Source: a virus
Length of the DNA stretch: 21,669 nt
Reading direction: 5' to 3' (one strand)
Virus record (IMG/VR): IMGVR_UViG_3300034068_000549
Location: 1 to 21,669 of that record
The notes below the pieces were generated by a model. That model was given only the letters and a program-made list of their open reading frames with translations. It had not been told where the DNA came from and did not search any database. Below are positions 3,826 to 19,950 of this stretch, one piece after another. How positions within the stretch are numbered: the first letter of the stretch is position 1; each line of letters begins with the position of its first letter. Made by a program: the position numbers and the translations under genes.

Positions 3826-5754
3826 ATGAAACAACTCCTTTTCCTCTTCCTCTTCCTTTTGCCTTGTCTTGCATGGGCACAGTACCCGAGCAATGGTAAT
3901 CAAAAGATAACGCTCGGAGAACAGAGTACTGCCGATGGGCTGGTGTATCGAGGCTTAGCGGCTGACACAAATGTCATTACACCATTTAGCGATACAAGTG
4001 CGTACATCATTCTTGATACGGTAAACAACAGGTTTTTTCATTATAAAATAAATACAAATGTTTGGAGCGTGGCAGGTGGCGGTGATACAACATCCATAGC
4101 ATACGTTAACACTTATGGCGCACAAACGGTAAATGGTGCTAAGACATTAACCTCAAATTTAATTTTAAAAAACAGTCAAGAGCCATCAAGGGCAGCGATT
4201 GTCACCACGCAAGGCTTTGCAGCTGATACGACAAATTGGACGCGTGGCACAGGTTGGACATTTAACGGAACACAGGCAGTAGCAACGGCAGCAACGGGAG
4301 ATTTAACTTACACGCCTTCATTAACCGTTACAAGTGGCAATGCGTATGAAATTACATACACGCTTACAGGTTATACAGCTGGAACATTAACAGTAGCTTT
4401 TGGTAATGTGAGTTTAGCTTTACCAACACAAAATGCAACGGCAAACGTAATTTTATTATTACCAACAATCGCAACAGGTGGTTTTCGATTTACTACTTCA
4501 TCATTTACGGGAAATCTTGACGATATTACAGTCGTCCAAATATCAAATCCTGCGCCTGTTTTATTTGCAGGGCAAGACGATGGATCTGCAACTTTGTATA
4601 GTTCATTAAGAATGCCAAATAGCACAACATTTGCTTTTGGTGGAGGTGCAATTTATACAACAGGAAGTAATAATGCAGCTATTGGTGTAAATGCACTTCG
4701 AGCTAATACAACAGGAAGTAACAATGTAGCAAATGGTCAAAGCGCACTTCAAAATAATACAAAAGGTATTAGTAATGTTGCTAATGGTGTAAGTGCACTT
4801 CGAGCTAATACAACAGGAAGTAATAATGTGGCTAATGGTGCAGGCGCACTTCTAAATAATACAACAGGAGATGGTAATGTTGCTAATGGTCAAAGCGCAC
4901 TTCAAAATAATACAACAGGTTCTGAAAATATAGCTAATGGTGTAAATGCACTTCTAAATAATACAACAGGAAATCTTAATGTTGCTAATGGCTCAAGTGC
5001 ACTTCGAAATAATACAACAGGAAGTAAAAATGTTGCTAATGGTGTAAGTGCACTTCGAGGTAATACAACAGGAAGTAATAATATAGCTACTGGTGAAAGT
5101 GCACTTTATAACCCCAGCGAATCATTGACAGGCTCAGATAATATTGCGATAGGTGCATTTGCAGCTGATAATATTAGGTCTACAGCCACTCGCAACGTAG
5201 TTATTGGCAGTTACCTTGATTTACCTGTTCAAGATGGCTCATATCAAGGTGTTTATCAAAATGCTTTATTTATAACAGGTGCAAGTGGCACGGGAACAAC
5301 CATAGCAGGTAATGTAGGTATAGCCGTTAACACTCCTACCGCACGCCTTCACCTTGTAGCAGGCACGGCAACGGCATCCACCGCACCATTAAAATTTACA
5401 AGTGGTGTTAATCTTACAACCGCTGAGGCTGGATCGATGGAATTTAATGGAACAAATCTTTTCTTTTCCCCATCTACAACAAGACACACAGTCAACCACG
5501 GATTAACAGGTTCAGCAACATTGAATTTTCCATCAACTACAACTTTGTTATCAGCTGATTTAACAATTACAGTAACAGGCGCGGCAGACGGTGACGTTGT
5601 GTCCCTTGGCGTTCCCAATGGTGCTGTGAATGCAAATACGTGTTATACTGCATGGGTATCAACCGCAAACACGGTGACGGTAAGATTTAATAATTATTCA
5701 AGTGGTACAGTTGACCCAGCTTCAGCATTATTTAAAGTATTCGTAACAAAATAA
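3826..5754 (+). CDS. Secreted-type tail fibre/adhesin with YadA-head-like repeats
   Basis: A 642-residue protein. It begins with a clear Sec signal peptide (MKQLLF..., hydrophobic to about residue 16, cleavage after AWA before Q). Residues about 22-92 repeat the N-terminal module of the preceding fibre gene (GLVYRGLAADT here, GLVWRGLVSDT there). Residues about 136-240 resemble a beta-sandwich carbohydrate-binding-like domain. Nine repeats of 17 residues (about 278-430, pattern NTTGSNNVANGxSAL) match the head repeats of YadA-type trimeric adhesins. The last 160 residues begin with NVGIAVNTPTARLHL and then a TAPLKFTSG stretch, both common at the ends of Bacteroidota phage fibres. It lies 10 bases after the first fibre gene with an A-rich leader. 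Role inferred: trimeric host-binding fibre; a secreted adhesin is the alternative. Confidence 0.8.
   Translation: MKQLLFLFLFLLPCLAWAQYPSNGNQKITLGEQSTADGLVYRGLAADTNVITPFSDTSAYIILDTVNNRFFHYKINTNVWSVAGGGDTTSIAYVNTYGAQTVNGAKTLTSNLILKNSQEPSRAAIVTTQGFAADTTNWTRGTGWTFNGTQAVATAATGDLTYTPSLTVTSGNAYEITYTLTGYTAGTLTVAFGNVSLALPTQNATANVILLLPTIATGGFRFTTSSFTGNLDDITVVQISNPAPVLFAGQDDGSATLYSSLRMPNSTTFAFGGGAIYTTGSNNAAIGVNALRANTTGSNNVANGQSALQNNTKGISNVANGVSALRANTTGSNNVANGAGALLNNTTGDGNVANGQSALQNNTTGSENIANGVNALLNNTTGNLNVANGSSALRNNTTGSKNVANGVSALRGNTTGSNNIATGESALYNPSESLTGSDNIAIGAFAADNIRSTATRNVVIGSYLDLPVQDGSYQGVYQNALFITGASGTGTTIAGNVGIAVNTPTARLHLVAGTATASTAPLKFTSGVNLTTAEAGSMEFNGTNLFFSPSTTRHTVNHGLTGSATLNFPSTTTLLSADLTITVTGAADGDVVSLGVPNGAVNANTCYTAWVSTANTVTVRFNNYSSGTVDPASALFKVFVTK
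4657..5115 (+). repeat. Nine in-frame 51-bp repeats in the fibre gene
   Basis: Nine consecutive units of 51 bp encode the 17-residue YadA-head-like repeats. Some copies are nearly identical: 4774-4827 and 5029-5082, five units apart, differ at one base in 54. Others differ at several codons, so the array has probably grown or been homogenised by internal recombination. Confidence 0.9.
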
Positions 5755-14992: not shown

Positions 14993-15019
14993 AAAATAGG
15001 GCAGCTGGGGGACTGCCCT
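14993..15019 (-). terminator. Terminator-like hairpin, - strand
   Basis: A 7-bp stem (AGGGCAG at 14998-15004 with CTGCCCT at 15013-15019) and an 8-base loop, followed on the leftward transcript by ATTTTA. The U-tract is short, so efficiency may be modest. It lies 14 bases after the stop of the 72-residue gene and 26 bases before the next ATG. Confidence 0.65.
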
Positions 15020-15032
15020 GTGAAATTTATTT

Positions 15033-16910: not shown

Positions 16911-17846
16911 TTATGCTTCAAATTCATTTACAAGCCTCTCAATTTCCTCCTGCCTCCGCTTCTCCTGTGCGGCAGGGTTGGAATACATAAATTTAGTATA
17001 AATATTATTTGCTTGTGAGTAGATATTGCTTATTGTAAAGTTAGCTTTAAGCCACTTATCGCTTATCTGCCATGCAGCAGTGGTAAACATTGTGATCATT
17101 TCATCTGGTGCCTGCTCACTGGCACTTACCTTCTTTAGCCATGTTACTAACTTTTTACAGTTTGAACCATCTTTAGCTGTCATGATATAATTATTCTTAT
17201 CAGAAGGATAGGTAACACCTGCCAGCCGTTCATAGGTGGAGGCGAATGCGGAAAAGCATAGGTAGGTTTCCGAAGGCTCGCGGCTTTCTTTTTCTTTTTG
17301 CGGCGCAAAAGTTTTTTCTTTTTCTTTAAAACCTTGCTCATGGGAAATGGAATCAAGGATGGATTGCCTTGTAAAAGAATTTTTTATTTTTGTTTTAATA
17401 GGAGTGAAAGGCATTTCACAATCCTTTAATACTTTAATATTGTTAATACTTCTATTGGCTAATACTTCTTGGGTGTTCATGGTTGAAGGTGTCCCCCCTT
17501 CATGTGTGAAGGTGTCCCCCTCTTCATTGGTGAATGGGGTGGTATCCAAATTTGACATACTTTTGCCTGTGACAAACACTCCTATAAATTCAGTTTCAAT
17601 TTTATAAAGGTTACTTGTTTGGCTTCCGTCGGGTCTAAACCTTTGTTTTACACTAATGATTTTTCTTGTTACCAATTCGTTTTTAATCCTTAAAATCTTT
17701 GAATCGCTAAATTTACATTGCTCAATCAATTTTTTGTTTGAAGGAAAACACATTTTATTCTCATTCATAAAATTAACAATGTGGCAAAGAAGGAATAATT
17801 GGTCTGGTGTTACCTGTGGCAAAAGCCTTGTATCTATGTTTATCAT
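16911..17846 (-). CDS. Winged-helix replication initiation-like protein
   Basis: A 311-residue protein. Residues about 10-85 form a winged-helix domain: a helical start, CFPSNKKLIEQCKFSDSKIL as the helix-turn-helix, then RKIISVKQRF and SQTSNLYKI as the wing. This resembles HTH_36-type phage replisome organisers. A low-complexity linker (about 95-195) contains the iteron-like DNA. The C-terminal part (about 196-311, starting LCFSAFASTYERL) is helical, DnaD-like in composition. Such proteins bind origins and help load the helicase. An origin inside the initiator gene, as in lambda O, fits the repeats seen here. The exact family is uncertain. Confidence 0.65.
   Translation of the reverse strand: MINIDTRLLPQVTPDQLFLLCHIVNFMNENKMCFPSNKKLIEQCKFSDSKILRIKNELVTRKIISVKQRFRPDGSQTSNLYKIETEFIGVFVTGKSMSNLDTTPFTNEEGDTFTHEGGTPSTMNTQEVLANRSINNIKVLKDCEMPFTPIKTKIKNSFTRQSILDSISHEQGFKEKEKTFAPQKEKESREPSETYLCFSAFASTYERLAGVTYPSDKNNYIMTAKDGSNCKKLVTWLKKVSASEQAPDEMITMFTTAAWQISDKWLKANFTISNIYSQANNIYTKFMYSNPAAQEKRRQEEIERLVNEFEA
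17427..17547. repeat. Iteron-like repeats, candidate replication origin
   Basis: Inside the linker of the initiator gene. Three units of 23-24 bp start with TTCA-N4-TGAA: TTCATGGTTGAA (17476), TTCATGTGTGAA (17499) and TTCATTGGTGAA (17523). The first two continue with the same GAAGGTGTCCCCC (17485-17497 and 17508-17520). The flanking AT-rich part carries TAATACTT three times (17427, 17444, 17460). The first two units are 23 bp apart, so they are read in different frames, which argues for selection on DNA. Confidence 0.55.
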
Positions 17847-17858
17847 TTTTCCATTATA

Positions 17859-18278
17859 TTAAAGTATAAAATTATTGTCATCGCAATATTTTTCAAATTT
17901 ATCAACAACTTCTAAAACATTTTTTGTAGTTATTGTAAACCATTTTCTTTTAAAATAAACTTCCGTTACGCTTTGCTCGGAAACTTTTACATCTTCATTC
18001 ACATCATTTATATTATGCCTAAATACAATTACAGTAACTTGTTTATTTCCATCTACCATAGCATTTGCTAAATGTTCAAGTGCCATTCTTTGCCCTTTAG
18101 GTATTTCAGCATCACCATATTTACCTTCTAAAATTATAAAGGCTTTTCCGTTGTAATCTATTAATCCATCAATATCCGTAGGTGTAATATTTCTCCTTCT
18201 TAATAATCCAGAGAAACTATTTATTTGTTGGGCTCTTGCTTTATGTTTTATATTACCTCTTTGTGTAGGTTGTTCCAT
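17859..18278 (-). CDS. Small PD-(D/E)XK-like nuclease
   Basis: A 139-residue protein. The core TDIDGLIDYNGKAFIILEGK (34-53) gives Asp35/Asp37, a beta hairpin, then Glu51-x-Lys53, followed by Gln63: the PD-(D/E)XK catalytic order, similar to small VRR-NUC-type or restriction-type nucleases. The N-terminus is basic. It overlaps the methyltransferase gene by 26 bases and ends 12 bases before the initiator gene. It could be a replication/recombination nuclease, or a cleavage partner of the methyltransferase. The fold call rests on motif spacing. Confidence 0.6.
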   Translation of the reverse strand: MEQPTQRGNIKHKARAQQINSFSGLLRRRNITPTDIDGLIDYNGKAFIILEGKYGDAEIPKGQRMALEHLANAMVDGNKQVTVIVFRHNINDVNEDVKVSEQSVTEVYFKRKWFTITTKNVLEVVDKFEKYCDDNNFIL

Positions 18279-19242
18279 ATTTCTTAAATTCGTTAATAAA
18301 ATTGTTTACATTAGAACCTATATAACATATCATTTGACCTTGTAATGGGGCTTGACCTAAATTACCATATTTGTCAATAAACCTAATCCTACTTTGATGG
18401 AAACAAACCGCAGATGAATTACTTAATAATAATTGTCCCCATTGCGTTTCAGTCCCATTATTTACTAAAACAATAGCTTGATTAACTCCTTTTGATTCAA
18501 CAAGTTTAGAAATAAACTGGAATATTAATGGTTGTGAATAAGGTGGGTTCATCCATACATTACCATACCAATCAAAAGATAATCCATCATCATCCTGTGT
18601 ATAAAATTTATTTGCCTTTACTCTTTCGTTTGCAATTATTGAGGATGCAGGATCTAAATCAATACTACCCATTACTAACCTTGCACTTTCAATATAACAC
18701 TCTGGTGTGTACCACTCATTTTCCCCTGAATTATTAGAAACGTGTGCTTTTGATTTTTTTTCATCAATTATAACTTCAATACTATCATTTATTACATTTG
18801 GCCAATCCTTAACTAATTTTACTTTTTGATTGGTAATCATCCATTCGTTTGCAACTGATTGAACCTTTGCAGAGGTTATAGGCTGCCTTGTTTCCTCGCT
18901 TTGTTTTACAACTTCATTCCAAACCTCTTTTTGTATTTCAGGTTCCAGACTTGTAAGAGGTCTTACTTGTCTTTCTGATTCTGGTAAAAGTGAACCCATG
19001 GGCTCACTTTGTAAATTAGTTACAGTTTCGTAGGCTCTTATTAATCTTGTTGCGCTTTGTTGAACCATTCCCCATTTATGGGTACAATAATCCTCAAAAG
19101 TTTTAAAACTAATTCGGTATAACCGTTTTTCTTTAATAGTCATTAAAGCCTGTCCAACCTCAATAAAAGTTTGCAATCCCTGTTTAATGACAACTTCGCA
19201 TCTTTCGAGTTCGTGCGATTCTTCAATGTTTAGTATTTCCAT
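18253..19242 (-). CDS. DNA N6-adenine methyltransferase with N-terminal DUF3102/ParB-like region
   Basis: The preferred start is ATG 19242 (MEILNIEESHELERC), giving 329 residues. The frame stays open to an ATG at 19275, but that start lies inside the terminator hairpin and its first codons translate the U-tract. Residues 1-75 resemble DUF3102/ParB-associated helical domains; RPLTSLEPEIQKEVW (94-108) is a ParB-like motif. The C-terminal part is a phage Dam-family methyltransferase: NEWYTP (175-180), DLDPAS (195-200) and the catalytic NPPYS (232-236). It should transfer methyl from SAM to adenine N6, protecting phage DNA or marking it. The target site is unknown. Confidence 0.85.
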   Translation of the reverse strand: MEILNIEESHELERCEVVIKQGLQTFIEVGQALMTIKEKRLYRISFKTFEDYCTHKWGMVQQSATRLIRAYETVTNLQSEPMGSLLPESERQVRPLTSLEPEIQKEVWNEVVKQSEETRQPITSAKVQSVANEWMITNQKVKLVKDWPNVINDSIEVIIDEKKSKAHVSNNSGENEWYTPECYIESARLVMGSIDLDPASSIIANERVKANKFYTQDDDGLSFDWYGNVWMNPPYSQPLIFQFISKLVESKGVNQAIVLVNNGTETQWGQLLLSNSSAVCFHQSRIRFIDKYGNLGQAPLQGQMICYIGSNVNNFINEFKKYGTTYTKR

Positions 19243-19248
19243 AGGTAG

Positions 19249-19286
19249 AAAAAAAATGCCCCAATAGGTAGACATCTATCGGGGCA
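19249..19286 (-). terminator. Strong intrinsic terminator, - strand
   Basis: On the leftward transcript TGCCCC-G-ATAG pairs with CTAT-T-GGGGCA around an 8-base loop (19286-19257; one G-U pair). Eight U follow (A at 19249-19256). It ends only seven bases before the methyltransferase ATG, a position that suits an attenuator as well as a plain terminator. Confidence 0.9.
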
Positions 19287-19355
19287 AAGGTGAAACAAAG
19301 ATTTGCTTCAATCTCCTTTGGGACGTTGTCTACTCCGTTCCAAAGGATAAGCAAA
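19249..19355 (-). ncRNA. Candidate structured RNA or 5' leader attenuator
   Basis: Upstream of the terminator lies a second, larger hairpin. CCTTTGG (19346-19340) pairs with CCAAAGG (19321-19315), with an inner ACG/CGT extension beyond one mismatch and a 10-base loop. An outer TTTGCTT/AAGCAAA stem (19355-19349 and 19308-19302) could extend it. A 15-base linker joins it to the terminator. No protein frame covers 19243-19368. With the promoter box at 19352-19359 this would make an RNA of roughly 100 bases. It is either a free small RNA or a riboswitch-like leader of the methyltransferase gene. Confidence 0.55.
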
Positions 19356-19359
19356 GATA
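19352..19359 (-). promoter_or_regulatory. Bacteroidota-type -7 promoter box
   Basis: TATCTTTG on the - strand, followed by C, matches the Bacteroidota -7 consensus TAnnTTTG. Transcription would start near 19346, just at the large hairpin. The expected -33 TTG is not seen about 20 bases upstream, where the sequence is a T/A-run, so strength is uncertain. Confidence 0.45.
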
Positions 19360-19368
19360 CATTATTTT

Positions 19369-19662
19369 TTAAAAATCGTTATATTTAATTTTACCACCTT
19401 GATGTGCAAACATCAAAGGATAGTCTTGATATTCTGGATTTGAATCATACAATTCTCTTAATGCTTCTTTAGTATGGCATTGCCTTACTTTAATAAGTAG
19501 TTCATCTGGGTCAATTTCACCATCCGGTATAACTTTAGTAGGTATAACATCCTTTTTCTTATCTAACCCATCTCCCCAATACCTTACTCCATCGGCTGGT
19601 TTTTCAAGCGTATAGCGTACTTCAGTTTCTGATACTTCAACAAAATAACCTAAGTTTCCCAT
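19369..19662 (-). CDS. Hypothetical protein (97 residues)
   Basis: A soluble, acidic protein beginning MGNLGYFVEVSETEV. It has a beta-rich first half, a Lys/Pro/Asp linker, then a helix (DELLIKVRQCHTKEALRELY). The end, NPEYQDYPLMFAHQGGKIK, is compact and aromatic. The alternation resembles small phage proteins found beside recombination genes, but no family is certain. The five-copy 11-bp repeat lies directly before the start; the candidate RNA starts just after the stop. Confidence 0.65.
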   Translation of the reverse strand: MGNLGYFVEVSETEVRYTLEKPADGVRYWGDGLDKKKDVIPTKVIPDGEIDPDELLIKVRQCHTKEALRELYDSNPEYQDYPLMFAHQGGKIKYNDF

Positions 19663-19665
19663 AAA

Positions 19666-19720
19666 TAAATGTCTAATAAATGTCTAATAAATGTCTAATA
19701 AATGTCTAATAAATGTCTAA
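19666..19720. repeat. Perfect five-copy 11-bp tandem repeat
   Basis: TAAATGTCTAA is repeated exactly five times (55 bp) with no mismatch. The period is about one helical turn, so all copies face the same side of DNA. The array lies in the leader of the 97-residue gene, and its right end supplies the stop codon of the upstream 77-residue gene. A single AAATGTCTAAT occurs at 12346, and a related array at 12123. Confidence 0.95.
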
Positions 19721-19950
19721 TTCTTTTCTCCAATTTGTTTCACCTCATTCTTATCCTCTATAAATCCACTGCCATGACTCCCTCCCACTATCTTTAGATA
19801 CTGGTTCTCTACACTCGCAGAATTAATGATTACCTGGGCAACATCTGCCACAACCTTGGCTTTGGCAATGTCGTAGGTGGAATCGGGATCGGTCAGTTCT
19901 TCGAGAACGGAAAAGAGGTGGTTGCGGAGGTCGCTGATTTTGTTTTTCAT
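19717..19950 (-). CDS. Small hypothetical phage protein (77 residues)
   Basis: A helical protein, MKNKISDLRNHLFSVLEEL, then DIAKAKVVADVAQVIINSA and a polar C-terminus. The RNHLF...LEEL...AKAKVVADVAQVIINSA pattern is common in short phage and prophage proteins of unknown role. It begins in an ATGA overlap with the preceding gene. Its stop lies in the 11-bp array, so the array may have been added or expanded at this 3' end. Confidence 0.75.
   Translation of the reverse strand: MKNKISDLRNHLFSVLEELTDPDSTYDIAKAKVVADVAQVIINSASVENQYLKIVGGSHGSGFIEDKNEVKQIGEKN

Follow-up and report, generated by a model that had tools for sequence, protein, structure and literature searches.

A stretch of phage DNA of 21,669 nucleotides (IMG/VR virus record IMGVR_UViG_3300034068_000549, positions 1 to 21,669; here termed the window) encodes a small RNA that is previously uncatalogued and absent from Rfam. 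The RNA has three hairpins, the last of which is an intrinsic terminator whose loop is complementary to that of the first, and the three-hairpin structure, including this loop-loop or kissing helix, is close to certain. The RNA is probably a portable transcription switch. In our preferred reading, which we hold with a probability of roughly 0.55, promoter, kissing-loop leader and terminator constitute a modular cassette by which the following gene is attenuated in cis, with an RNA of about 98 nucleotides set free.

The element is read from the minus strand in the order TAHHTTTG box, first hairpin (H1), second hairpin (H2), terminator hairpin (H3) with a tract of eight U, and the ATG of a methyltransferase gene. 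The -7 promoter element TATCTTTG, of the Bacteroidota TAHHTTTG type, lies at 19352-19359, and transcription is predicted to start at the first base or bases of H1 (19346-19347). H1 (19314-19347) is the 5'-terminal hairpin, with arms at 19347-19338 and 19323-19314, and carries in its loop the heptamer GUAGACA (K1, 19327-19333). H2 (19292-19309; GAAGCAA-AUCU-UUGUUUC) follows, and H3 (19257-19286) bears the heptamer UGUCUAC (K3, 19268-19274), in which inspection reveals perfect complementarity to K1 over 7 bp. The U8 tract (T8 in the DNA, 19249-19256) forms the predicted 3' end, giving an RNA of about 98 bases. The three hairpins were identified by folding and covariation, and H3 also by a terminator scan. 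The downstream gene (18253-19242, minus strand) encodes a Dam-type DNA adenine methyltransferase (PF05869, E = 2.4e-18; PHROG 111, E = 9.1e-33), and a 97-aa ORF (19369-19662) lies on the other side of the element.

The initial annotation of this DNA had described a TAnnTTTG box, a large hairpin, a short linker and a strong U8 terminator in a gene-free stretch of 126 bases. Box (TATCTTTG, 19359-19352), hairpin (19347-19314) and terminator (stem 19286-19257, then T8 at 19256-19249) are all present on the minus strand, and the gap between the ORFs (19243-19368) measures 126 bases. The supposed linker is in fact H2 (19309-19292), and six bases (19248-19243), not seven, separate the terminator from the ATG at 19242. 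The annotation had named a lack of covariation in homologues as grounds for refutation. Strong covariation was observed, and the statement that no known riboswitch class applies agrees with the lack of any matching Rfam family; a structured RNA that has a promoter and a terminator of its own is therefore supported. The annotated feature is confirmed, and there is more to it than had been described: both H2 and the complementarity between the H1 and H3 loops were missed.

The predicted fold energy was -40.2 kcal/mol, compared to -22.3 +/- 3.2 for shuffled sequences (z = -5.6), and none of 200 shuffles was as low. Of the terminator-like sites in the window's right third, H3 was the strongest. 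The TAnnTTTG box by itself was not significant (24 found, 32 expected), and its significance derives from a position that is fixed across homologues rather than from mere occurrence. A possible pairing of promoter TTTGCTT with AAGCAAA in H2 was dropped, as TTTGCTT precedes the predicted transcription start and shows no conservation.

Relatives were collected by several routes. Leaders located before methyltransferase homologues by protein search alone retained H1, H2 and H3 but had different loop pairs, among them GUAGAGG/CCUCUAC, GCACUAC/GUAGUGC, GUGCAAG/CUUGCAC and GUGAUAG/CUAUCAC. Scans with a loop-pairing descriptor together with DNA seed searches yielded 48 distinct copies (alignment A1), of which 17 were used to build a covariance model (R1) that included H1, H2 and H3 and left out the loop-loop pairs. 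R1 matched 67 copies in one contig set and 77 in contigs fetched only through their replication-initiator protein; the total in IMG/VR phage contigs was 143 copies, corresponding to 73 distinct RNAs and 93 distinct neighbourhoods. Bona fide matches scored 50-103 bits and opposite-strand echoes about 30 or less. The descriptor behind the first 48 copies required loop complementarity and some of these copies were used in building R1; the protein-only routes are free of this bias, and R1 itself holds no loop pairs. One copy (L114) that R1 found and the descriptor missed also has matching loops. Among the long contigs searched, up to two copies occur per contig.

At the gathering threshold, Rfam 15 gave no match in the window; below it, the family scoring highest over the element was PyrR, with 24.4 bits where 54 are required. 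Ten loci with relatives gave only tRNA-family matches, elsewhere in the loci. Among the leader-bearing contigs, tRNA-family matches just above the threshold were seen at L024:1248-1339, L169:110-230 and L006:2828-2900, those in L024 and L006 lying about 1-1.4 kb ahead of the first leader. The RNA family is without description in the titles and abstracts of the open-licence literature searched.

The secondary structure is supported by extensive covariation. In an alignment of 43 distinct rows (A4), 97.9% of cells were paired and 28 of 34 pairs had two-sided changes; the covariation score was 0.596, whereas shuffles reached 0.206 +/- 0.009 and sliding the partners by 1-3 columns lowered the score to 0.08-0.10. 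Two-sided changes were found in 7/10 pairs of H1 (94.8% of cells paired), in 4/7 pairs of H2 (98.3%, with many G-U pairs) and in all 10 pairs of H3 (99.3%). Conservation in alignments A4 and A5 sits in the helices, and the linkers differ in length and sequence. All seven pairs of the kissing helix had two-sided changes and none had a one-sided (G-U) change; the stems, unlike the kissing helix, are rich in G-U pairs. This would follow if loop-loop helices of such short length accept Watson-Crick pairs alone.

Each of the 73 distinct RNAs has a Watson-Crick match of at least 7 nt between its own loops, and the heptamers fall into 20 classes. When loops were swapped between RNAs, H1 and H3 matched in 345 of 345 same-class combinations and in 278 of 4984 between-class combinations (5.6%). 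The complementary hairpin loops are kept by compensatory change, which is the mark of a kissing-loop RNA. The 7-bp helix may form within one molecule or may join molecules into dimers.

The position of the RNA relative to its promoter and to the next gene is equally regular. A TAHHTTTR-like box stands 4-5 nt before H1 in 83 of the 93 neighbourhoods and 3 nt before it in another 7, and a co-directional ATG follows 5-22 nt after the end of the model in all 93, most often at 7-8 nt. Promoter, RNA, terminator and start codon thus stand in fixed order and spacing, as in a leader with an intrinsic terminator. Flavobacterium johnsoniae uses TAHHTTTG as its -7 element, with transcription starting 4-5 nt past it (PMC6847099); by this rule, the RNA should begin at the first base of H1. 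In most copies H3 and the start codon lie too close together to accommodate another promoter, hence any transcript that enters the gene has to run through H3, and the leader would limit expression to the extent that H3 terminates.

We favour the following sequence of events. Transcription would begin at the first base of H1, after which H1, H2 and the terminator hairpin H3 would fold one after another and the H1 loop would lock onto the H3 loop through the 7-bp kissing helix. Most transcripts would stop at the U tract, giving a compact RNA with little single-stranded sequence at its 5' end, while some polymerases would pass H3 and express the downstream gene, so that the cassette would act as an attenuator in cis. 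The loop-loop contact would aid termination and is probably the adjustable step: if it were broken or pre-empted by a phage or host factor, by the state of transcription or translation, or by another RNA, read-through would follow. The places where transcription starts and stops, termination itself, the part of the kissing contact in controlling it, and the signal are all matters that we infer.

A comparable layout is found in the lambda pR'-6S RNA-tR' region, where promoter and terminator enclose a short RNA ahead of the genes under control. The phage leader differs in that no Q-like factor was found, the RNA is shorter and has a kissing structure, the terminator lies 5-22 nt before the ATG, and many phages have more than one copy. 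The nearest known architecture appears to be that of the cobalamin riboswitch of the env8 type, where an aptamer loop kisses an expression-platform loop (L5-L13) and the helix between the loops must contain a bulge to be ligand-dependent (PMC10907184). In both leaders the loop of an upstream hairpin kisses that of a regulatory hairpin near the gene start; however, the phage leader has no cobalamin core, its partner hairpin is an intrinsic terminator, and its seven Watson-Crick pairs have no bulge and a sequence that is free to vary.

The initial annotation had left open whether the element was a free small RNA or an attenuator or riboswitch-like leader. The genomic data favour the leader or attenuator, because a co-directional ATG closely follows the model in every neighbourhood, and a metabolite riboswitch is unsupported, given the unrelated downstream genes and a search for conserved alternative antiterminator helices that came up empty. 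We regard it as unlikely that the terminated transcript of about 98 nt is itself the product, acting in trans on phage or host targets, with the proximity of the ATG due to compact packing. Such an RNA would account for the promoter and terminator in nearly every copy, for the presence of up to two copies in the long contigs searched, and for a 5'-terminal hairpin and kissing closure that fit a stable RNA; furthermore, in compact phage genomes read in one direction, an independent RNA gene also tends to precede an ATG. However, the invariable orientation and the 5-22 nt spacing argue against it, H3 would then block the next gene, and the loop pair is highly variable, with no conserved unpaired seed-like stretch for a common target.

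The diversity of the loops also bears on a dosage sensor acting in trans, in which terminated leaders would pair through their loops with nascent leaders of other genome copies and thereby raise or lower termination, different loop sequences keeping the copies of one genome independent. Complementary loops in as many as 20 sequence classes and the frequency of replication initiators among the downstream genes are in keeping with this, as is the finding that, wherever a contig carries two copies, their heptamers differ (30 such loci, with 15 combinations as counted). Shuffled combinations likewise gave no coincidences, so that avoidance of the same loop is without statistical support, and intramolecular pairing is a simpler account of the complementarity; we consider such a sensor rather improbable. 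Plasmid copy-control RNAs (ColE1 RNAI/RNAII and attenuation in pT181 and pIP501) employ an antisense RNA from the opposite strand. They resemble the phage leaders in loop-loop pairing over about 7 bp, in loops that diverge with complementarity kept and in serving as leaders of replication genes, but the phage leader has both loops in one RNA and no opposing promoter is shown. If a dosage sensor were the true function, phage replication and cargo gene expression would track genome copy number, and the loop classes would be like plasmid incompatibility groups, also between co-infecting phages.

As to how an attenuating cassette would be switched, no conserved nested antiterminator was found among the nested, non-pseudoknotted alternatives covered. 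Before its 3' arm emerges, the 5' arm of H3 has a mean pairing probability of 0.33, exceeding 0.5 in only 7 of the 73 RNAs, and the conserved alternative helix with the terminator 5' arm that marks a classical attenuator was not found among these alternatives. This would leave the kissing contact or a factor to act as the switch, and regulation through loop contact, a bound factor or some other RNA is likelier than a switch of the classical kind. The same result is compatible with an antitermination site of the HK022 put or nut-like kind, where H1 and H2 would bind polymerase or a phage factor that then passes H3 and later terminators. The HK022 putRNA, which acts on polymerase alone, is a precedent, and both are promoter-proximal structured phage RNAs at the start of transcription units (PMC9378689). 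The put element suppresses termination by binding polymerase, whereas the phage leader carries its own terminator and a loop-loop contact; a put-like element needs no complementarity to a terminator loop, the H1 and H2 sequences change a great deal and no antiterminator protein was identified, which makes such a site decidedly improbable.

The genes that follow the leaders include Dam methyltransferases, N6/N4 methyltransferases (some with ParB_N), HNH and HNH-helicase proteins, MUG113/T5orf172 proteins, GmrSD_N/ParB-like proteins and several replication initiators; these families are mutually unrelated and share no pathway. Despite a leader, pseudoknot and terminator architecture that would suit it, a small-molecule riboswitch, such as a sensor of S-adenosylmethionine before the methyltransferase, was rejected as extremely improbable given these unrelated genes, the negative Rfam searches and the lack of a conserved unpaired ligand-binding core.

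The cassette is portable between unrelated genes. An RNA with a GTGGAGA loop, identical over 94 bases, stands before genes for an N6/N4-methyltransferase, a small MPRKR-type protein and a GmrSD/ParB-like protein. Two loci, L035 and L046, have the identical RNA before replication initiators with unrelated N-termini. The replication initiator of the window (16911-18278) begins 13 nt past the previous ORF and has no leader, and its close homologue in L046 has one. In addition, a phage with closely matching neighbouring genes (G008) has the loop pair of the window in a leader before a MUG113-domain gene rather than a methyltransferase. As the same RNA precedes different genes and the leader is missing before the replication gene of the window, the cassette is portable and optional. 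A variable cargo slot can be seen by comparing L211 (142-1161) with the window (18253-19242), where similar neighbours flank either a MUG113-domain protein or a Dam methyltransferase after the leader.

The -7 promoter type points to Bacteroidota hosts. A BLAST search of isolate phages with the element returned no match, and a second leader variant gave short, weak matches only. The isolate phages Flavobacterium tant8-1 and Croceibacter P2559S (in part) had no convincing RNA, and their replication proteins are distant. Among only 10 candidates scored per genome in about 790 Bacteroidota genomes there was no RNA match, which makes this a weak test, and a contig of a Chitinophagaceae MAG has a replication homologue and no RNA match.

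These results add a well-supported RNA family for phages whose -7 boxes point to Bacteroidota, hosts in which RNA control is little studied. As a way of controlling transcription, a terminator whose loop is held by the loop of an earlier hairpin is unusual, and the 20 interchangeable natural loop pairs make the idea directly testable by loop swaps. The leaders may offer ready-made gene-control parts for Bacteroidota, and the cassette marks a variable cargo slot with methyltransferases and nucleases.

Several other features were observed in the window. A perfect 11-bp tandem repeat, AATAAATGTCT, is present in 5.3 copies between two small genes (19664-19721); copies of its motif TTAGACATTTA also sit immediately before the leader promoter in L016, L017 and L018, where the motif is possibly an operator. 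A 51-bp tandem repeat of about 9 copies (4655-5106) lies inside a long ORF that is possibly a tail-fibre gene, and a hairpin at 14996-15021 scores as a terminator on either strand.
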